From a virus, in the IMG/VR virus record IMGVR_UViG_3300009601_000004, positions 1 to 64,000 of that record: DNA of 64,000 nucleotides; one strand, 5' to 3'. The translations under genes were made by a program, and so were the position numbers. The stretch's first letter is position 1, and every line of letters begins with the position of its first letter. The notes under the pieces are model-generated. The model was not told the origin of the DNA. It saw only the letters and a list, made by a program, of their open reading frames with translations, and did not search any database. Below, one piece after another: positions 4,294 through 62,169 of the stretch.

Positions 4294-5451
4294 TCAAGCC
4301 AGCCGCCACACGAGAGCCCCACGGTTGCCGATGACAACACCACCAAGCGTGGATTCAAACGACGTTAGGATGGTATCCCCTTCGTTCACGGAGGCGACGC
4401 ACATCAGGATGACACTCGAACCGTGTGTGGTTAAATTCCCCTCGAAGTGCCGAGTGCAGTCGGGTTGCGTGACACCTGCGACCTTCACGTCAAAGTGTAC
4501 GTCCATTGCGACGGAAGTCGTGGTGTAGATGGTGCCCACTTGCTTGCCCAATGTGATTGTGCCACCGCTGCCGCTGCCGACACTGCCGGCACCTCCGGCC
4601 TGGGTGGAGTCTGCGATTGTCCCCACGCCTGTGTAGTACGCAAATTCAGCCAGCAGGTTGAGGTCAATGGCGAGATCAGTGCTGGGTGTGCCCGACGGCA
4701 GGACTTGTGTGGATCCAGTCAGCGACAGAGCCCCACTGGTCGACAGCAACCGGCCCTCTAAGTCAAGGCCCCCACCGGGAGCCATGCCGCCCGCGATACA
4801 GATAATGTTCCCTTTGAGGTCTGCCCCACCACCTGCAGACGCCGCGCCGGCAAGCAGCCAATAGATGTTGCAGGCTTGCGCCCCGTTCGCGAGTGCATGG
4901 GTGTTGCCCGCATTGAAGGTCATGGTGCCGCTCACCCTGACCACAAAGATGGCGTCAGCGTCCCCTGCGGCGTCGAACGTCGTCGTCCCTGACGCGGTGC
5001 TGGCACCGGTCAGGTCGAAGACACCCGGTACAATCACCTGCCCGTTCGAGATGGTAGACGAAAGTCCGCCGCTCGACGTGAGCGCCTGGATCTGTGTCAC
5101 CATTGCATTCAGGTCGAGCAGGGCTTGAGCCACAATGTTTGTCGGCGTCGTGGCAAACTCGATTGTCGACTCCATGCGATAGATCCCTGTTGACGGTGCG
5201 GTCAGGGTCGTGTTGTTGACCGTAGCCGTCGCACGCAGCGCTAGGGTCTGCGGCGTACTGGACGAATCGTTGACATAGACCGAAGGGGCAAAAGCCCCCG
5301 CTGCCTCGATTACACCGTAGGACGCCGCGGCGCTGTCTAGTGATACGTACAAGACGCCACCCGACACCCCGATGGTGCCCTTGAGCCGTGCCTCGGTCAA
5401 ATTGGAAAAGCGGGGATGCACCCCGTCATCGAGGTAGGTGGGCTGTGACAT
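4294..5451 (-). CDS. Fibre-like protein with DUF3494 (ice-binding-like) domain
   Basis: 385 residues, ATG at 5451. Residues 1-100 are a short beta-rich module similar in style to phage fibre N-termini. Residues 105-260 read as a DUF3494 right-handed beta-solenoid: a VIVPGVFDLTGAS-type opening, FDAAGDADAIFVVRVSGTM, NGAQACNIYWLLAG and LEGRLLSTSGALSLT all match the family's typical PGTY...DAIFVF...GA...VFWQV...GR.L...GAVTL pattern. The last 100 residues form another beta domain with three Cys. DUF3494 proteins bind ice or act in adhesion; in a viral late block a surface adhesion or host-binding role is more likely. No signal peptide is seen. Confidence 0.75.
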   Translation of the reverse strand: MSQPTYLDDGVHPRFSNLTEARLKGTIGVSGGVLYVSLDSAAASYGVIEAAGAFAPSVYVNDSSSTPQTLALRATATVNNTTLTAPSTGIYRMESTIEFATTPTNIVAQALLDLNAMVTQIQALTSSGGLSSTISNGQVIVPGVFDLTGASTASGTTTFDAAGDADAIFVVRVSGTMTFNAGNTHALANGAQACNIYWLLAGAASAGGGADLKGNIICIAGGMAPGGGLDLEGRLLSTSGALSLTGSTQVLPSGTPSTDLAIDLNLLAEFAYYTGVGTIADSTQAGGAGSVGSGSGGTITLGKQVGTIYTTTSVAMDVHFDVKVAGVTQPDCTRHFEGNLTTHGSSVILMCVASVNEGDTILTSFESTLGGVVIGNRGALVWRLA

Positions 5452-5462
5452 ATTTGCGATCC

Positions 5463-6578
5463 TTACCGTTTACGGCGTTTGCTTCTGCGTTCTAGCCAGG
5501 CTTCTGCTGCGCTAATGGCCACGAAGGTTGCGATGCCACCTACTGCGGCTTCAACGGCAATGATGGAAAGCTGACGCCAGTAGGGCTTAGGGTTGTCTAA
5601 GGGCCCGTCCCCGATGTCATCGAGACCACGGCCACTACCACGGAAGCCAGGCACGGGGATGCCGGCCATGGGTGCGCTTCCGACGTTGAGAGGCGCCACG
5701 TTCAGGGCGGTGCGAGCGGGTGACAGTCTACCGGGTCGTTTCAAGCCAAAGCCCCCTAGCCCTGCCGATGCAAGGCCACCATAGTATTCAGATGCCGGTT
5801 CGGCGCTCTGGCCGGTGTCACCCCCGTTCGGTGGCAATCCCTTGTACCAAGACAGTGCTCCCGGTTTGGTCACCGAAGCGGGCAGGGCCATGTCGCCATG
5901 CGTCCCCATCTTCACGCCATGCCGCACGATGCTGTAGCCCAGCGGCGACCCCTTGAGCGTCGGCTCTGTCTCTGCCCAGTGCTGGTCTTTGACGGCCGCA
6001 CCAAAGGGCCAACCAATCGCAGCCGTGATGTGAAACCAATCGACGTCCTTACCACTAGTCCAGCCCCTCGGCATCGGGGTACCTTCGAGCCATCGTACCA
6101 TCTGGCCCGTCTTGCGAACACGGCCGATGAGCATGTAGCGGTTGGGCAGACCGATGGAGCACGCGAGGCTGTTCAGCAGCAGCGCCATGTCGTCACAGTC
6201 TCCCAAGCCCCATTCCAACGTCCGCCAAGGTGACGCGATGCGCTCTCCCGGCTCGTTGACGTAGAAGACCTCGTCTTGCACAAAGGCAAGCAGCGCAGCC
6301 GCCATCTTGGGGTACTCGCGCTGTTGCGTACCTCTTGCTTCAATGACCCGTACAGCGAGTTGGGCCATTCGAGGGTCACGGCCGTACTCTTCGGCTTTCG
6401 CTCGCAGGAACGCGATGCGCTTCGGGTGGGACATTCGAGCCCAGTTGTGAAGCACCGAGACCTGACCCGTCTTACCCGGCCCACGCTCTGCCAGAACGCC
6501 GTCAGAAACGGCTAGGGCCCCCGCACGTCCCATAGGGGTGCGGGGCTTCGGGCGTGTGGTCGTGGGGTGTCTAGGCAT
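5463..6578 (-). CDS. Transglutaminase-like cysteine protease/peptidase with C-terminal membrane helix
   Basis: 371 residues from ATG 6578 (MPRHPTTTRP). Residues 90-200 carry the transglutaminase-like core: the nucleophile Cys128 in WGLGDCDDMA and His183 in DWFHITAAIGW; the acidic third residue is not certain. A Gly/Pro-rich linker follows, then a hydrophobic segment SIIAVEAAVGGIATFVAISA and a basic tail RRSKRRKR, so it is probably membrane-anchored. No Shine-Dalgarno precedes the ATG; instead TAGACT ends exactly six bases before it, as expected for a leaderless mRNA. Possible roles are virion maturation protease or peptidoglycan/peptide crosslink processing; context favours a virion component. 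Confidence 0.75.
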   Translation of the reverse strand: MPRHPTTTRPKPRTPMGRAGALAVSDGVLAERGPGKTGQVSVLHNWARMSHPKRIAFLRAKAEEYGRDPRMAQLAVRVIEARGTQQREYPKMAAALLAFVQDEVFYVNEPGERIASPWRTLEWGLGDCDDMALLLNSLACSIGLPNRYMLIGRVRKTGQMVRWLEGTPMPRGWTSGKDVDWFHITAAIGWPFGAAVKDQHWAETEPTLKGSPLGYSIVRHGVKMGTHGDMALPASVTKPGALSWYKGLPPNGGDTGQSAEPASEYYGGLASAGLGGFGLKRPGRLSPARTALNVAPLNVGSAPMAGIPVPGFRGSGRGLDDIGDGPLDNPKPYWRQLSIIAVEAAVGGIATFVAISAAEAWLERRSKRRKR

Positions 6579-6584
6579 GACCAC

Positions 6585-6632: not shown

Positions 6633-7175
6633 CTAGTGTGTGGTACTTGCAATTGGCTCTACCGTCCACCCACGGATGTTGACCCACACAGAGTCACTCA
6701 TGGCCACATTGAGGCTTAGTATTGAATCAACGGTAGTATCAACTAGTGGGGGTGAGCCCACGTCAGTCGATGGCGTACTGTCGATCACAGCACTTAAATA
6801 GGACATGGCCATACCAGCAACAGGCCCTTCGGACTGGATGGTAAATGTGCCTGTGAGGTGCCACGGGCTCTGGTACGTGCCTTTGCTCACCATCATGACC
6901 TCTGCCATGATGGTGCTGCCGAGCGCGACGTCGAAAGTCACATCCGACACATCCCCAGCGGCAACTGTGCCCCACGCGGTGACGCGGTAGCTCTTGCCTG
7001 CGACCAATTGGCAAGCCGCCAAAGTGGGACCTGGGAAGATGGTACGCGCGGTATCATCAGTGCTTAACGGGGCAATGGCGCTGTAGCTGGCCTCCGGCGC
7101 ACAACAGGCCTGCGCGCTGTTCAGCAGAGGTAGGCAGAAAAGGACCGCGAGTAACAGTAATAGAAAGCGTGGCAC
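6633..7175 (-). CDS. Secreted beta-sandwich protein
   Basis: 180 residues with a clear Sec signal peptide (PRFLLLLLAVLFCLPLLNSAQA, cleavage likely near residue 23, followed by CC). The mature part is beta-rich with Val/Thr/Ser-rich strands and no Lys-rich helices. The pattern of its central domain resembles the C-terminal domains of the two neighbouring fibre-like proteins (ending at 4294 and 7235), suggesting related folds. A signal peptide is odd for a tailed-phage structural protein and suggests export or a membrane-proximal virion role. No family name is assigned. Confidence 0.7.
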   Translation of the reverse strand: MPRFLLLLLAVLFCLPLLNSAQACCAPEASYSAIAPLSTDDTARTIFPGPTLAACQLVAGKSYRVTAWGTVAAGDVSDVTFDVALGSTIMAEVMMVSKGTYQSPWHLTGTFTIQSEGPVAGMAMSYLSAVIDSTPSTDVGSPPLVDTTVDSILSLNVAMSDSVWVNIRGWTVEPIASTTH

Positions 7176-7234: not shown

Positions 7235-8065
7235 CTACGGCGCGTTGATCTTGCGGATAGTCAAGGTCGACAGCCCCGCGGTGATACCTGCACCAGCCGT
7301 GTCCATGGTGACTGCGACGCCCAAGACATTGGTGGCGGTCGTGTCGATACCTGTGGTCACGACGGAGCGCCCACCTAGGGTGTTTGCGATTGGACCGCCC
7401 GTGAGCCCTGCGGCCAACTGAGCTGTGCCAGCGGCGCCGATCGCGCGCACCGTGACCTCTGCCACAACAGACCAGCCGTTATTTGAAACCACCGCATCTG
7501 CCGTGGCGGCAAGTGCCGTACCCCCAAAAGACACGTCAAAGCTGAATGCTGCGGTGACTGCCGCGGTCGTGCCACTTCCGATGAACTGCAACACATCGCC
7601 GACTGCCAAGCTGTTAACGGGCAGCGTGTAAGTCTGGTCAAACACCGTGCGGGTTGTGGTGTTGGCTACCACAGTTGACGAAACGACTGCTGTGAAGAGT
7701 GGCGTAACGGCGCCACCACCGGCTTGCCACGTCGGTTCCGTGCCTGCACCATTGGCAGTCAGCAGCTGGCCAGCCGTGCCGGCACCAATGCGCACAAGCC
7801 CGGTCGCGTTCCGAGACAGCAGGTCGCCCTGTGTCGTCAGGGCGGCGCCCGCCTCGTTGACTGGGGTCCAAGTAGCGCCGGCAGCTGCGGCGCTGGTGTT
7901 TTCGTAGAGTGTGCCAGCCGTCGTATTGAGGCAGAGCGAACCACGCAGAGCACTGAAAGACGGGACGCCCGCGTTTGCGTAGATGTCAATGTCGCCGGCG
8001 GACCCAGGACTGGCACCGCCACCGGAGCCTCGGAGGCGTACGGGGCTTGAAAAGATAGAGGGCAT
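7235..8065 (-). CDS. Fibre/spike protein
   Basis: 276 residues, ATG at 8065. Residues 60-120 contain a motif common in phage fibre proteins: LTTQGDLLSRNATGLVRIG, then GTAGQLLTANGAGTEPTW. The C-terminal 150 residues form a Thr/Val/Ala-rich beta domain (FDVSFGGTAL...). No catalytic motif. Likely a surface attachment or decoration protein. CGCTAAACT at 8107-8099 upstream is a candidate promoter. Confidence 0.75.
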   Translation of the reverse strand: MPSIFSSPVRLRGSGGGASPGSAGDIDIYANAGVPSFSALRGSLCLNTTAGTLYENTSAAAAGATWTPVNEAGAALTTQGDLLSRNATGLVRIGAGTAGQLLTANGAGTEPTWQAGGGAVTPLFTAVVSSTVVANTTTRTVFDQTYTLPVNSLAVGDVLQFIGSGTTAAVTAAFSFDVSFGGTALAATADAVVSNNGWSVVAEVTVRAIGAAGTAQLAAGLTGGPIANTLGGRSVVTTGIDTTATNVLGVAVTMDTAGAGITAGLSTLTIRKINAP

Positions 8066-9105: not shown

Positions 9106-9582
9106 CTAGGCCTCTGACTGCTTGCCAAGAAGCTGTGAGAGGTCGTACATGGGTTCGTCGAGATCGAGGTCTGTCCGGCGGTGGTCGGCCACCGCTGAAT
9201 ACTCCTCGACCTTCGCTTCATTGATCTTGTCCTTCTGGACGACCATGAACAGGAAGCCCAGTGACTGCGCTCCCATGATCTCACTCAGTGCCATCTGCGC
9301 TTGAGCTTGACCCGGCGGTGCGAGCAGGACACGGCTGGCATTCTCGAACAGAGACAAGTCGAGCATCATGGCTTGACCCTGCAGCTGAGCCGCGGGACGT
9401 CCATGGATCTGTGTGACGCCCACGCCAAAGTTAGGCACCGGGATCAGCATCCCAGACAGCTGGTCGATGGCCTCGTGTGTGGCGCCCAGCTGGCCAAACA
9501 GCTTGATCAGCCAAGGCGGAAGGTCCACGAGCTGAGGGCCTAGCTCGATGTTCTGCGCGGGCAGTCCCGTGGATTCAGTCAA
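9106..9582 (-). CDS. Unknown late-block protein
   Basis: 158 residues from a TTG codon at 9582 (reading MTESTGLPAQ), which overlaps the preceding stop by eight bases and has AGAGGTG just upstream. It has hydrophobic and amphipathic helices (LVDLPPWLIKLFGQLG, ALSEIMGAQSLGFLFMVVQK) but no clear transmembrane span, and an acidic C-terminus. No family is recognised. Confidence 0.65.
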   Translation of the reverse strand: MTESTGLPAQNIELGPQLVDLPPWLIKLFGQLGATHEAIDQLSGMLIPVPNFGVGVTQIHGRPAAQLQGQAMMLDLSLFENASRVLLAPPGQAQAQMALSEIMGAQSLGFLFMVVQKDKINEAKVEEYSAVADHRRTDLDLDEPMYDLSQLLGKQSEA

Positions 9583-10057
9583 GGGTCACCTCTGGCAACC
9601 CGCTGTCGTCGCCTAAGTCGTCAATGTCGAGGTCGAAGTCGTCGTCGTCTTCGAGCGCATCAAATACGATGCCCATCTCCGCCAGCCGAGCCACCTGTGC
9701 GGGGCTGATCAGAGCGCCGGCACGCTCGTGGATGAATGCCGAGTCAGGGACTTGGGCTTCGAGCGGTCCCGTGACGAGATCGATCTCTTGCTGGTCAACC
9801 CCTTGTTCGGCACCTTGGCGACGCACGGTCTCGATCTGCGCTTCGATGGCTTCAGCGATGTCCTCGACGGTGGGGTCCGGTATGACCTGGTAAGCACGCA
9901 GGTACACCCACCCTTCGGCGAGGTGCTGCAAGATGGTCTGCAGCTCTACGTCTGATTCAGACTGTGTGAACTCCATGTTGGGGTTGAAAGCGTCTGGAGC
10001 TGTGAGCCCCGATGCCCCGCACTGCATTGTGCGCGGGCGGATGTCTATACTCGGCAT
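9575..10057 (-). CDS. Acidic late-block protein
   Basis: 160 residues from ATG 10057 (MPSIDIRPRTMQCGAS), with GAGG eight bases upstream; the longer open frame to 10159 overlaps the previous gene and is not needed. Residues 70-110 are helical and Glu/Gln-rich; the C-terminus is strongly acidic (DALEDDDDFDLDIDDLGDD). No family is recognised. The acidic tail suggests a partner-binding or scaffold role, not shown directly. Confidence 0.65.
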   Translation of the reverse strand: MPSIDIRPRTMQCGASGLTAPDAFNPNMEFTQSESDVELQTILQHLAEGWVYLRAYQVIPDPTVEDIAEAIEAQIETVRRQGAEQGVDQQEIDLVTGPLEAQVPDSAFIHERAGALISPAQVARLAEMGIVFDALEDDDDFDLDIDDLGDDSGLPEVTLD

Positions 10058-10074: not shown

Positions 10075-10575
10075 CTAGGTTATTGAAAGAACTCCGCCAG
10101 GGTCGGCCGATGTCCCACGGAGGGTGACGCGCGCACCGGGGGGCCCTGTAAGGCCCCACTGGATTCCACTGCCCATGAAGCAGGGCATCTGGCGGTGCTC
10201 TTGTGTTTCAAGGTAGCCAGCTGTGTTCACACGTAGGCCGACTTTGCTCCCGGTGAAGAACGACCAATGCACGCCAGCGAGGTCGCCCGTCACGCGGTGT
10301 ATCGTCCAGTCGTAGATCGACTTGTCCGCTTGGTAGACCCCAGACTCTGGGATCACGATGCATAGGAGTGTGTCCAACCCGTCAGCGTCCGGTATCAGCG
10401 CTGCACGCACTGCACAATCTTTGGCTTCCAGCAACTTGAGCAGCGCGTGGTCCCGCATGAAGTTGTTTGGCCCCGTGGCAAGACGGGCCGCTAAGTCGTG
10501 GAATGGCTTGGACTGCGCCTGCAGGTGTGCGGGTAAGTGGTCGTAAGCAAATAGTTGTAGGATGTCATCAGCCAC
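10075..10575 (-). CDS. Acb2/Tad1-type helical hairpin domain fused to a C-terminal beta domain
   Basis: 166 residues. Residues 8-62 (FAYDHLPAHLQAQSKPF, HDLAARLA, HALLKLLEAKDCAVRAAL) match the pattern of the Acb2/Tad1 helical hairpin family: an aromatic start, HLQxxSxPFxxLA, then ALxKLLEAKDxAVRAAL. Acb2 proteins bind cyclic di- and trinucleotides and block CBASS (and related) signalling. Residues 65-166 form a separate beta-rich domain without recognised relatives. It overlaps the upstream coiled-coil gene by eight bases, so it is made with virion proteins; it may be packaged and delivered at infection. The family call is from motif memory; sponge activity is inference. Confidence 0.65.
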   Translation of the reverse strand: MADDILQLFAYDHLPAHLQAQSKPFHDLAARLATGPNNFMRDHALLKLLEAKDCAVRAALIPDADGLDTLLCIVIPESGVYQADKSIYDWTIHRVTGDLAGVHWSFFTGSKVGLRVNTAGYLETQEHRQMPCFMGSGIQWGLTGPPGARVTLRGTSADPGGVLSIT

Positions 10576-12682
10576 GGGGGATGTCCTTGATGAGGGCCGC
10601 TAGGGGGCCCTCAATTTTGTTGAGCAGCGCGATGTACTTGTTGATCAAGACGTCGTCGGCGCCGGCCTCTTCGGCTGCTTTGCGGATGGTCGTGGCCGTC
10701 AGGTAGCCACCGAGAGCCTTCGGCGCGTGCTTCACAGCGCTGATGGTCAGAGCTTGCCACTTCGCTTGCGGGTGCTTGCGCAGACCCTCTACGAGTTTGA
10801 CCATGAGCTTGCGCGCCATGGCCTGGTCAGCTGCTGGGATGTTGGCTTTGTCCGCTGGGTGTTGACGTAGGTTTGTGCGAGTGCGAGGGGGCTCTGTAGG
10901 CGCGGGTGCTGTTGCCCCGCCTGCGCTTGGGTCGTACTTCTCACGTCCCATGGCGGCGAGCGCAGCGGGTCCACCGACCTCACGGTAGGCGTCACCATGC
11001 GCAGCACGCGCGGCTTTCACATGTTCGGGCACTGCGGCCTCTTCTGCGATGCGTGCCTGCTCTGCTTCTGCCGCTGCTATTTCGTCATTCGTGAGACCAC
11101 GACCGTTGGTAGACAGCCACTCGCGAGCCTGCTCAAGCGTCATCTCCTCTTCCGTGTCCGGGTGGTAAATGACGCCTTCGCTGTCTTGCAGTAGCCCGTC
11201 CTCACGCTCGATTAGGTCGTCTTCGTCGTCTTCGTCGTCGTCCTGTTCGAGCTGCATGGCCGGCGTCATTATCACCTTGCCGACTTCGCCGGCCTGCTTA
11301 ATGACCTCCTTCACAATGCCTGCCCAGCCGTCGGCCTTGTCCTCCTCCTCTTTCGGGGACACAAAGCGGTCCTTGAAGGCGTCGACCAGTCCGAGTTTCT
11401 CCGCAAGTGCCAGTGCTGGCACAAGCATTGTACCGACGGCCATGAGGCTATTCATCGGGTTGGACGCTTCCATACGCTGCGTCATTAGGGCCGTCATCGA
11501 GGCGTTGTGGCTACGTTCGCGCTCGCGTTCTTCCGCACGACGGCGGTCGTCCTCTGCGCGGTCTTGGCGCTCGCGAGCTTCCCGGCGGTCGCGCTCCTCT
11601 TTGATCTGTGCTTCACGGCGATTCTGTTCGCGGTTTTCTGTCTCCCGACGTTCAAGGCGCTCCTCACGCATCCGAGACTCACGGCGGTCGAGGTCTGTGC
11701 GCGCTTGGTCCGCTTGGATGCGCGCCTGGTCGACTACCATCGTGAGGCTCTGGGACTGGAGCGAACCGTGTTCCTTCATTTGCTCGCGGTCGCGGTCGGC
11801 GGAGCGGTTGTACCACTCGCGCTCCGCACGGGCTTGCGCGTCCGAGCGGGTCGCGCCTTGGTTCATCAGGGTGCTGACCATCGTCGTGTAGTTGTCGACC
11901 GTCTTCGCAGCCATCCCGAACTGACTCGCATTGGCGTCGGCGCGAGACTCCTCTAGCCGTGCTTCGCGCTCGCGCAGGTCGGTGCGGTCGGACATCTCAC
12001 GGTCAAAGGTCGCTTTGTCCTTCTGTTGTAGGTAAGCAAACGTGCTGTCTGTCACCTGGCCAGCTCCGTAGCTCATGGGGGCTGGTGCGACAGTATCTGC
12101 ACCATTCAGCCGGCGCTGCTCTTGGAAGTAGATGTGGTCCGGCGGGATCTCTAGGACGTACGGCGTGTTCGCGAGGTCGAGGTCGGCACCGAATTGGTCA
12201 ATGGGTGTACACAGGAAAGTGCCGGGACCGAACGTCTTGATGATGTCTAGGCGTGAGCACATTGCGGGGAAGTCGCCTAGATGCTCCATTTTACCCGTCC
12301 CGCCCATGCGGTTGACACGTAGATGGTAGGTCTCGCCGCTTGTGCTGTAGCGTGCCCAGTCCGACCAGACGGGAGCAGAGCCTACGACTGACGAAGGTAG
12401 TCGCCCCATCCCACGATGAGCCTGTGCTGCTGGGCCTCCGACGCCTGGCGTGTCGGCAACCGCCCCTGTGTCGGCGTCGTTGTCACCGAACAGGTCGTAC
12501 CCTTCATCATCTTCTGGGGGAACGCCTGCCATTGTCGGCTGTGCAGGTGTGGGCTGTCCGTCTGGTGCGCTTGGTCGCGGCTGGTAGCTGTCCCAGTCGA
12601 CTTCAAATTCATCCCCGGTATCCGCGCCCGGCACGCTCACATTGTCACCTGGCATCGCTGGCAAACTTGGGTCCATTGACAT
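10568..12682 (-). CDS. Large coiled-coil protein, probable virion or membrane-associated component
   Basis: 704 residues, first gene of the leftward block. Residues 1-110 are acidic and Pro-rich (disordered). Residues 105-205 form a compact domain (WARYSTSGETYHLRVNR...GTFLCTPIDQFG...). Residues 215-410 are an almost continuous Arg/Glu-rich coiled coil (repeats of RREARERQDRAEDDRRR type). A hydrophobic segment, NSLMAVGTMLVPALALAEKL, follows, then a DDEDDEDD acidic run and a helical C-terminal domain. No known family. A minus-strand TATAGG lies at 12766-12761, possibly a -10. The architecture suggests a scaffold or membrane-linked structural protein. Confidence 0.7.
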   Translation of the reverse strand: MSMDPSLPAMPGDNVSVPGADTGDEFEVDWDSYQPRPSAPDGQPTPAQPTMAGVPPEDDEGYDLFGDNDADTGAVADTPGVGGPAAQAHRGMGRLPSSVVGSAPVWSDWARYSTSGETYHLRVNRMGGTGKMEHLGDFPAMCSRLDIIKTFGPGTFLCTPIDQFGADLDLANTPYVLEIPPDHIYFQEQRRLNGADTVAPAPMSYGAGQVTDSTFAYLQQKDKATFDREMSDRTDLREREARLEESRADANASQFGMAAKTVDNYTTMVSTLMNQGATRSDAQARAEREWYNRSADRDREQMKEHGSLQSQSLTMVVDQARIQADQARTDLDRRESRMREERLERRETENREQNRREAQIKEERDRREARERQDRAEDDRRRAEERERERSHNASMTALMTQRMEASNPMNSLMAVGTMLVPALALAEKLGLVDAFKDRFVSPKEEEDKADGWAGIVKEVIKQAGEVGKVIMTPAMQLEQDDDEDDEDDLIEREDGLLQDSEGVIYHPDTEEEMTLEQAREWLSTNGRGLTNDEIAAAEAEQARIAEEAAVPEHVKAARAAHGDAYREVGGPAALAAMGREKYDPSAGGATAPAPTEPPRTRTNLRQHPADKANIPAADQAMARKLMVKLVEGLRKHPQAKWQALTISAVKHAPKALGGYLTATTIRKAAEEAGADDVLINKYIALLNKIEGPLAALIKDIPRG

Positions 12683-61035: not shown

Positions 61036-62169
61036 TTAGTGCAGGCCTCGGACCCCACCGCCAAGCGAAACAGAGCGAAGCCCCGACATGCGGTTCGAGC
61101 TGCTTTGCTTGATGTGGATGGTACCGCCCTTGATGGACATGTCGGCGTTGCTGTGCTTGTACCCGCGCGACTGTGCCCATGCACGCGCGCTAGTGGGTGT
61201 GAACTGCGGTCGAGGGAAGACAAGCACTTTCATGGCCTGTGGGTTTTTGCGGGGCTTCGTCATCAGCTTAGCCATGTGTGCCGGTCCTTTGGCCAGGATG
61301 GGGTCGATGGTGCGTATAGCTGCGGCGTCGCCTTGGTCGGCGAGGTCGGCGAGGCGAAATAGACGCTCCATCTCTGGGACATTGGCGTTGCCCTGCTTGT
61401 ACGCGGTGTGCGAACCTTTACCTAGCGTGGACAAGCGAGTGGACTTGAGCTGCAGCTCGACGGGCACTTCAACCATGCGCCCGTCTTCGGTTTCCAGCTC
61501 GCGCATCAGCGTGAAGTGGTAAGCGCGGTAGCCGTTGTTGGGGCTGGTGTAAAAGTCGTCGTCTAGCTTGGCGCGGCCCAGTGCCCCGCCTTCGATGATT
61601 TTGCGCATACTCTCCACACCATAGCGGTCGGGCATTACGATGGTGGTGGCTACCACGTCTGTAAGTCCCTTCTTACCCACAAGACGCTTACGGCGCAGCT
61701 TGTTGATCATCGAGTAGGGCGTCTTGACGCGTCCAATGAATTTGCCACCTCGCTTGGTTGCGATCTGTTCCACGTCACGCCTGACGTCTTGAAAGAGCCC
61801 CTGCATCGAGTCGCGGTAATCCAGCAGCTTACCCATCTCTTCAGACAGCTTGGTCTCTTCGATACGGCGGGTGTTCTGTTTGCCGTAGGGTTCAGGGTCG
61901 TCAACCGCTGGGATGCCGTCCCCATCGAAATCGTTGAAGAACGCCGGGTAGTCCTTGCGGCTTAGGCGTGTGTCACCTGTCGCATGGACTGCGTACTCTT
62001 CCGCTCCGCTGTTTGGTCTGACCGAGGGACGCACCACCATGACAGCGTGGCCTTCGCCGTCGTAGACGTGACACGGCTTGTTGGTCGCTGCTGCCTGTTG
62101 GTGAGCGCGCCGTAGTGCGTTCTTTTTGCGTGTGTAAACTGTCGAACGGCCGTCAATGGTGAAGGGCAT
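61036..62169 (-). CDS. RelA/SpoT-like nucleotidyltransferase-domain protein, probable injected (polyvalent) protein
   Basis: 377 residues, GGAG before ATG 62169. Residues 60-100 contain FFNDFDGDGIPAVDDPEPYG, a calcium-binding DxDxDG repeat. Residues 140-270 match the RelA/SpoT synthetase plan: GRVKTPYSMINKLRRK, GLTDVVATTIVMPD, NNGYRAYHFTL and VELQLKSTRL. The C-terminus (FTPTSARAWAQSRGYKHSNA) resembles a segment found in phage prohead/ejection proteins. It could make or bind alarmones in the host cell after injection. Catalytic activity is inference. Confidence 0.7.
   Translation of the reverse strand: MPFTIDGRSTVYTRKKNALRRAHQQAAATNKPCHVYDGEGHAVMVVRPSVRPNSGAEEYAVHATGDTRLSRKDYPAFFNDFDGDGIPAVDDPEPYGKQNTRRIEETKLSEEMGKLLDYRDSMQGLFQDVRRDVEQIATKRGGKFIGRVKTPYSMINKLRRKRLVGKKGLTDVVATTIVMPDRYGVESMRKIIEGGALGRAKLDDDFYTSPNNGYRAYHFTLMRELETEDGRMVEVPVELQLKSTRLSTLGKGSHTAYKQGNANVPEMERLFRLADLADQGDAAAIRTIDPILAKGPAHMAKLMTKPRKNPQAMKVLVFPRPQFTPTSARAWAQSRGYKHSNADMSIKGGTIHIKQSSSNRMSGLRSVSLGGGVRGLH

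Follow-up and report, generated by a model that had tools for sequence, protein, structure and literature searches.

A putative distant sister of the Acb2/Tad1 hairpins fused to an orphan domain: a PHROG 1761 protein from an IMG/VR virus

The gene and its neighborhood

The window (the whole 64,000-nt stretch of viral DNA analyzed here) comes from a virus record of 92,736 bp whose ends carry a 25-bp repeat (G000, comprising the window and the pieces L216 and L217). Its minus strand carries a gene of 166 codons at 10075..10575, with the GTG start codon at 10575 and the stop codon at 10075-10077; the ORF list confirms that this frame, pointed out in an earlier note made from the letters alone, is real and that its coordinates are exact. 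A Shine-Dalgarno-like AAGGA is found at 10584-10588, 8 nt ahead of the GTG. The end of the upstream gene (10568..12682, minus strand, 704 aa, no family match) lies inside the start of the 10075..10575 gene with an 8-bp overlap (10568-10575), and the downstream gene (9575..10057, minus strand, 160 aa if started at the ATG at 10057, without a convincing match to any family) belongs to the same apparent operon. The gene is one member of a tight operon. The frame is open, and the codon-position GC is alike in the part encoding an N-terminal helical hairpin (residues 1-62, 10390..10575), in the remainder of the gene (residues 63-166, 10078..10389), and in both neighbor genes.

The same minus-strand block encodes a fiber-like β-protein (7235..8065, minus strand), which exhibits similarity to the tail fiber family phrog_9851 (E 1.3e-5). 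It belongs to a group of four paralogs of the same virus, all on the minus strand, located at 7235-8065, 6633-7175 and, in the coordinates of the full genome, 86553-87182 (L217:6553-7182) and 88309-88929 (L217:8309-8929), with pairwise E-values among them ranging from 6e-33 to 3e-5. This paralogous group is the sole sign of virion genes in the block. The description of the gene product as a "virion-block protein" in the earlier note is therefore not supported: fiber-like proteins are present, but no hallmark virion gene was identified beside the gene, and the C-terminal domain of the product resembles nothing in the collections searched. Two other genes of the block encode a protein with a transglutaminase-core domain and a hydrophobic C-terminal segment (5463-6584, minus strand) and, at 4294-5451 (minus strand), a protein with an ice-binding-like domain (PF11999, E 1.1e-22). 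Searches of IMG/VR revealed no relatives of the neighboring gene 5463-6584 (pattern scan) or of a capsid-like protein, and therefore no syntenic copy of the fusion is available for comparison.

The N-terminal hairpin and its family

The product of the 10075..10575 gene (hereafter the window protein) begins with a hairpin that the PHROGs search confidently assigned to phrog_1761 (E 2.6e-21) and phrog_5120 (E 6.5e-12), both matches covering residues 1-62 and both families having no known function. In tblastn, 282 phage records match residues 1-62, and none of these 282 covers 80% of the window protein; across the tblastn searches the number of records was 282-374, and more than 500 candidate PHROG 1761 loci were found in IMG/VR. 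Residues 1-62 share 50-65% identity with stand-alone phage proteins, and the PHROG 1761 homologs are nearly all stand-alone, with a median length of 64 aa (80 IMG/VR loci). Apart from Glu40 and Arg46 (see below), the invariant residues of the family (F9, H13, L14, S22, F25, A29, K47, L49, E50, K52, D53 and R57) are intact in the window protein. The motif HLQxxSKPFHDLA...KLLEAKDCAVRA, on which the earlier note had based its assignment to Acb2, is indeed present at a level far above chance expectation; what it marks, however, is PHROG 1761/5120 and not the characterized Acb2 proteins. Searches of Pfam, NCBIfam and PADLOC with the whole window protein yielded no matches, the PDB gave only chance matches by sequence and only weak, unrelated helices with the family profile, and the IMG/VR searches with the window protein alone and with its C-terminal part were empty. 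The papers searched contained no account of an experiment on a PHROG 1761 member.

AlphaFold predicts helices at residues 2-9, 16-33 and 39 to 58 or 60 with pLDDT of 95-98, and a model of residues 1-63 alone reached pLDDT 95 and pTM 0.81. The predicted hairpin agrees with the layout of the Acb2 protomer, i.e. one short and two long antiparallel helices (PMC12043709). A Foldseek search of BFVD identified relatives as well as one predicted protein annotated as "Acb2/Tad1 hairpin domain-containing" (probability 0.97, 26% identity), while among the PDB matches of the whole model and of the hairpin alone (best E 0.42 and 3.7, respectively) there was no Acb2; T4 Vs.4 has a PDB entry (7uq2). In our judgment the missing PDB match counts only weakly against an Acb2 fold, because short helical models score poorly. 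The whole-protein Foldseek search is dominated by the unreliable C-terminal part.

Relationship to Acb2/Tad1

Phages employ Acb2 proteins to sequester the alarm signals of their bacterial hosts. As references we used T4 Acb2 (Vs.4, assigned to PHROG 717) and gp101 of Xandras (PHROG 1454), which has been named a CBASS antagonist (PMC11953737), together with a further set of Acb2 hairpins collected from IMG/VR. The curated cut-off of PF24729 (Acb2_Tad1_hairpin) is 27 bits, and the reference set is genuine PF24729, at 58-77 bits (T4 Acb2 70, Xandras 58; four further checked proteins also pass). When 73 PHROG 1761 sequences were compared with 64 Acb2-hairpin sequences in hhalign, the score was 33.0 and the probability 83 (E 9e-6 for a single comparison), and the alignment spans 37 columns in one register, nearly free of gaps. 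A HMM built from the Acb2 hairpins alone placed PHROG 1761 family members in the top 25 positions among 3,642 ORFs. Single family members match PHROG 1454 with E-values of 4e-5 and 6e-5 (Xandras Acb2 itself: 1.3e-29). When 9 genomes carrying the family were searched in full, PHROG 1454 matches fell on the family genes in 8 of them (E 6e-7 to 7e-4). PF24729 itself grazes a few relatives of the window protein, all of them below the cut-off. With Acb2/Vs.4 the family shares the register of the LA....LP..E...AL.KL.EA core, while the Acb2 signature EAMFWANAAIAR / EASMWACRAVF has EAKDCAVRAAL in its place in the window protein. Or perhaps the likeness is convergent, and any amphipathic two-helix hairpin would produce it? 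The sequence is short, Pfam returns weak matches to unrelated helical families with similar E-values, and no fold in the PDB was matched; against this stand the single, nearly gap-free register, the hhalign controls, which score at most half of the observed value (the highest of 60 column shuffles reached 15.9, the reversed profile 10.5), the leading ranks of family members in the HMM search, and the location of the PHROG 1454 matches. We therefore consider convergence quite improbable; judged from the profiles, the PHROG 1761 family is a distant but real sister of the Acb2/Tad1 hairpins, at the family level only.

The same does not hold for the window protein taken singly. It yields no match to PF24729, and thus does not exceed the 27-bit cut-off, it yields no match to PHROG 1454, and the Acb2 HMM ranks it 2068th of the 3,642 ORFs (E 640). 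The hairpin match claimed in the earlier note thus applies to the family but not to this protein, and it lacks a counterpart among PDB folds; likewise, "Acb2/Tad1-type" is acceptable in the broad sense of a clan, but by the Pfam cut-off the protein is not an Acb2. Since it is unrecognized by the Acb2 profiles, falls below the Pfam cut-off and is devoid of Glu40 and Arg46 (see below), the protein belongs to a sister branch and not to Acb2: it is predicted to be a divergent member of a new sister branch of the Acb2/Tad1 hairpins. The comparison with Tad1 reveals a different domain order. To judge by the name of the model, the two C-terminal helices of Tad1 are covered by the same Pfam hairpin model as Acb2, and in Tad1 these helices follow an N-terminal antiparallel β-sheet (PMC12043709), an order that is reversed in the window protein, where the probably β-rich part follows the hairpin.

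In the Vs.4 hexamer the interface involves L29, A66, A73 and A77, and cGAMP is contacted by Y8, H11, K23, R79 and F82, with mutation of F82 lowering the affinity more than 25-fold (PMC10097602). In the alignment the four interface positions correspond to L28, A44, A51 and A55 of the window protein, and 4/4 are retained (in terms of residue identity only). The hexamer-compatible interface that the earlier note asked for has its counterparts in these residues, but Glu40 and Arg46 are lost. Among the ligand-facing positions, R57 aligns with Vs.4 R79 and is kept, K23 is present but variable across the family (44/73), and the position of F82 is occupied by Leu60 (Leu/Ile/Val in the family), so F82 is not kept. 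The invariant F9 (or Y11) and H13, also kept in the window protein, lie near the positions of Vs.4 Y8/H11 with the spacing one residue longer; we infer their correspondence from motif and order. In the family, Cys or Ala occupies the position of the Acb2 signature Trp, next to which lies the family-specific K52-D53. This pattern suggests that, relative to Acb2, the scaffold has been kept and the ligand changed; as the pocket is unlike that of Acb2, the ligand is probably not cGAMP.

The window protein departs also from its own family. In residues 40-47 (MRDHALLK, 10435..10458, minus strand) Met40 and Leu46 take the place of Glu and Arg, both of which are kept in 72/73 sequences of the viral set (column counts), and the LP loop is lost as well. 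Four other PHROG 1761 proteins combine the hairpin with a C-terminal extension: L050 (2983-3516, 178 aa), L304 (3007-3345, 113 aa), L273 (3001-3630, 210 aa) and L271 (146 aa); on inspection (and, for L050, an additional comparison) their extensions are visibly unlike each other and unlike that of the window protein. Glu40 is lost in none of the 148 distinct short proteins and in 3 of the 5 extended ones (M/L at positions 40/46 in the window protein, Q/Q in both L050 and L304), with a Fisher p of 1.7e-5 that is descriptive: these are related sequences, selected by a motif that includes KLLEAKD. This suggests that the gain of a C-terminal domain accompanies a changed assembly. The same losses could be read as decay, the hairpin of a former sponge persisting as a structural leftover devoid of nucleotide binding: Glu40 (present in 148/148 distinct short relatives), Arg46 and the LP loop are gone, and no similarity of the window protein to the Acb2 profiles is detectable. 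The remaining invariant residues are nevertheless intact from F9 through R57, the frame is open, and its codon-position bias resembles that of the neighbor genes; all this speaks against a relic, which we regard as unlikely.

The orphan C-terminal domain and the possible function

Compared with PHROG 1761/5120, with which it has the hairpin in common, the window protein possesses an additional orphan domain of 104 residues (10078..10389), probably β-rich. AlphaFold predicts strands in residues 63-166, with pLDDT of about 60 falling to 35. Thus, the fusion of a hairpin to a roughly 100-residue β-domain is supported as to the fusion and its approximate length, while the strands themselves are of low confidence. 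No relative of this domain was found in the searched phages, in the IMG/VR viral collections, or in the virus's own genome, and hhalign detected no similarity to the fiber-like proteins of the same genome (probability 0.09); the best match in phages, a collagen-repeat protein at E 3, was dismissed as chance.

These results weigh on the proposal that the β-domain builds the sponge into the particle, to be delivered with the genome and to act at the onset of infection. Its attractions are the fiber-like proteins in the minus-strand block and the strands predicted in the C-terminal part; yet that part has neither a relative, nor a confident model, nor similarity to the fiber group, the PHROG 1761 sister proteins are stand-alone accessory proteins with no recorded virion role, and a stoichiometric binder at virion copy numbers would probably capture few signal molecules. 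Carriage of the window protein in the particle is pure conjecture, and we deem the proposal very improbable; still slightly less credence goes to its more specific form, in which a nucleotide-signal sponge, representing a novel offshoot of the Acb2 clan, would be anchored in the particle by its C-terminal domain and brought into the cell at entry. A likelier idea, though itself doubtful, is that PHROG 1761 as a whole represents an unrecognized class of late-expressed sponges with a new ligand.

The genomic setting of the relatives is mixed. At 74 family loci, the families met most frequently as nearest larger neighbors are the terminase large subunit, portal, head-tail adaptor and head morphogenesis families; in Gordonia phage Ruthy the PHROG 1761 gene gp8 (L221:1501-1713) is flanked by head-tail connector genes close behind the major capsid gene, and the copy of Vibrio phage martha adjoins the portal gene. 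The family gene has rIIA and topoisomerase genes nearby in T4-like Acinetobacter phages; a Ruegeria phage carries it among nucleotide-metabolism genes, and BigNuz-like phages carry it in accessory regions. A locus shared between vs.4 and the gene of the T4-like Acinetobacter phages was considered and rejected, the position near rIIA and the topoisomerase gene being a different one. Accessory counter-defence genes are typically scattered in this way. The mixed positions thus suit a mobile accessory gene, while a head-related role is compatible with them too.

The main rival explanation holds that the hairpin is an oligomerization or assembly module and no sponge at all, with PHROG 1761 proteins aiding head assembly or DNA packaging and the hairpin here serving to multimerize the C-terminal domain. 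It draws on the preponderance of terminase, portal and head genes near the family loci, including the positions in Ruthy and martha, on the retention of the interface residues while the ligand-facing ones differ, and on the existence of extended forms devoid of Glu40/Arg46. The positions near rIIA/topoisomerase, among nucleotide-metabolism genes and in accessory regions form a scattered pattern of the kind usual for accessory counter-defence genes and argue against it, and late placement suits a sponge too, because late products such as terminase-gene RNA can provoke CBASS (PMC10686824). We view the assembly module as possible but rather unlikely.

Taken together, the window protein is most likely an oligomeric binder of a small molecule (a nucleotide signal) with changed specificity, or a derived version of such a binder reused as an assembly module. 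The reading we prefer, with a probability of roughly 0.4, is that of a lineage-specific fusion in which an oligomeric binder of a small signal, probably a nucleotide, from the PHROG 1761 sister family is present in a derived form. Identical hairpins would pack into a small oligomer via the same small-residue interface as in Acb2 and trap between them an immune signal that is small, anionic and probably of the nucleotide type, leaving the host effector untriggered. In this virus the orphan C-terminal domain would have been added and Glu40 and Arg46 lost, which may have changed the assembly and the ligand, or else relaxed the sponge function. The product would act inside the infected cell, where it is made with the rest of its operon; particle carriage is not indicated.

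The useful result lies at the level of the family: PHROG 1761, very common and annotated with no function, appears as a sister of Acb2 in which the interface is kept and the pocket changed. If its members bind nucleotides, they would constitute a new class of counter-defence sponges and could lead to the discovery of a new signal. The existence of both stand-alone and fused forms makes nucleotide binding directly testable, and the fused copy in the window raises the question, does an extension of the hairpin alter its assembly?

The virus itself is unusual. In the complete record neither a phrog_2 terminase nor a PF04860 portal was found, and a PHROG search with 49 proteins showed no head or tail hallmark in its best 25 families. 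Many of the encoded proteins are small and either basic or single-pass hydrophobic, and small β-like proteins are also present (L217:3575-4192 and L217:4306-4947). The record may represent a tailless, perhaps membrane-containing virus unlike the known ones. At 61036-62169 (minus strand) the scanned set contains a RelA/SpoT region (Pfam E 2.1e-10; ORF assigned by inspection), the product of which is possibly a phage-encoded alarmone synthetase.
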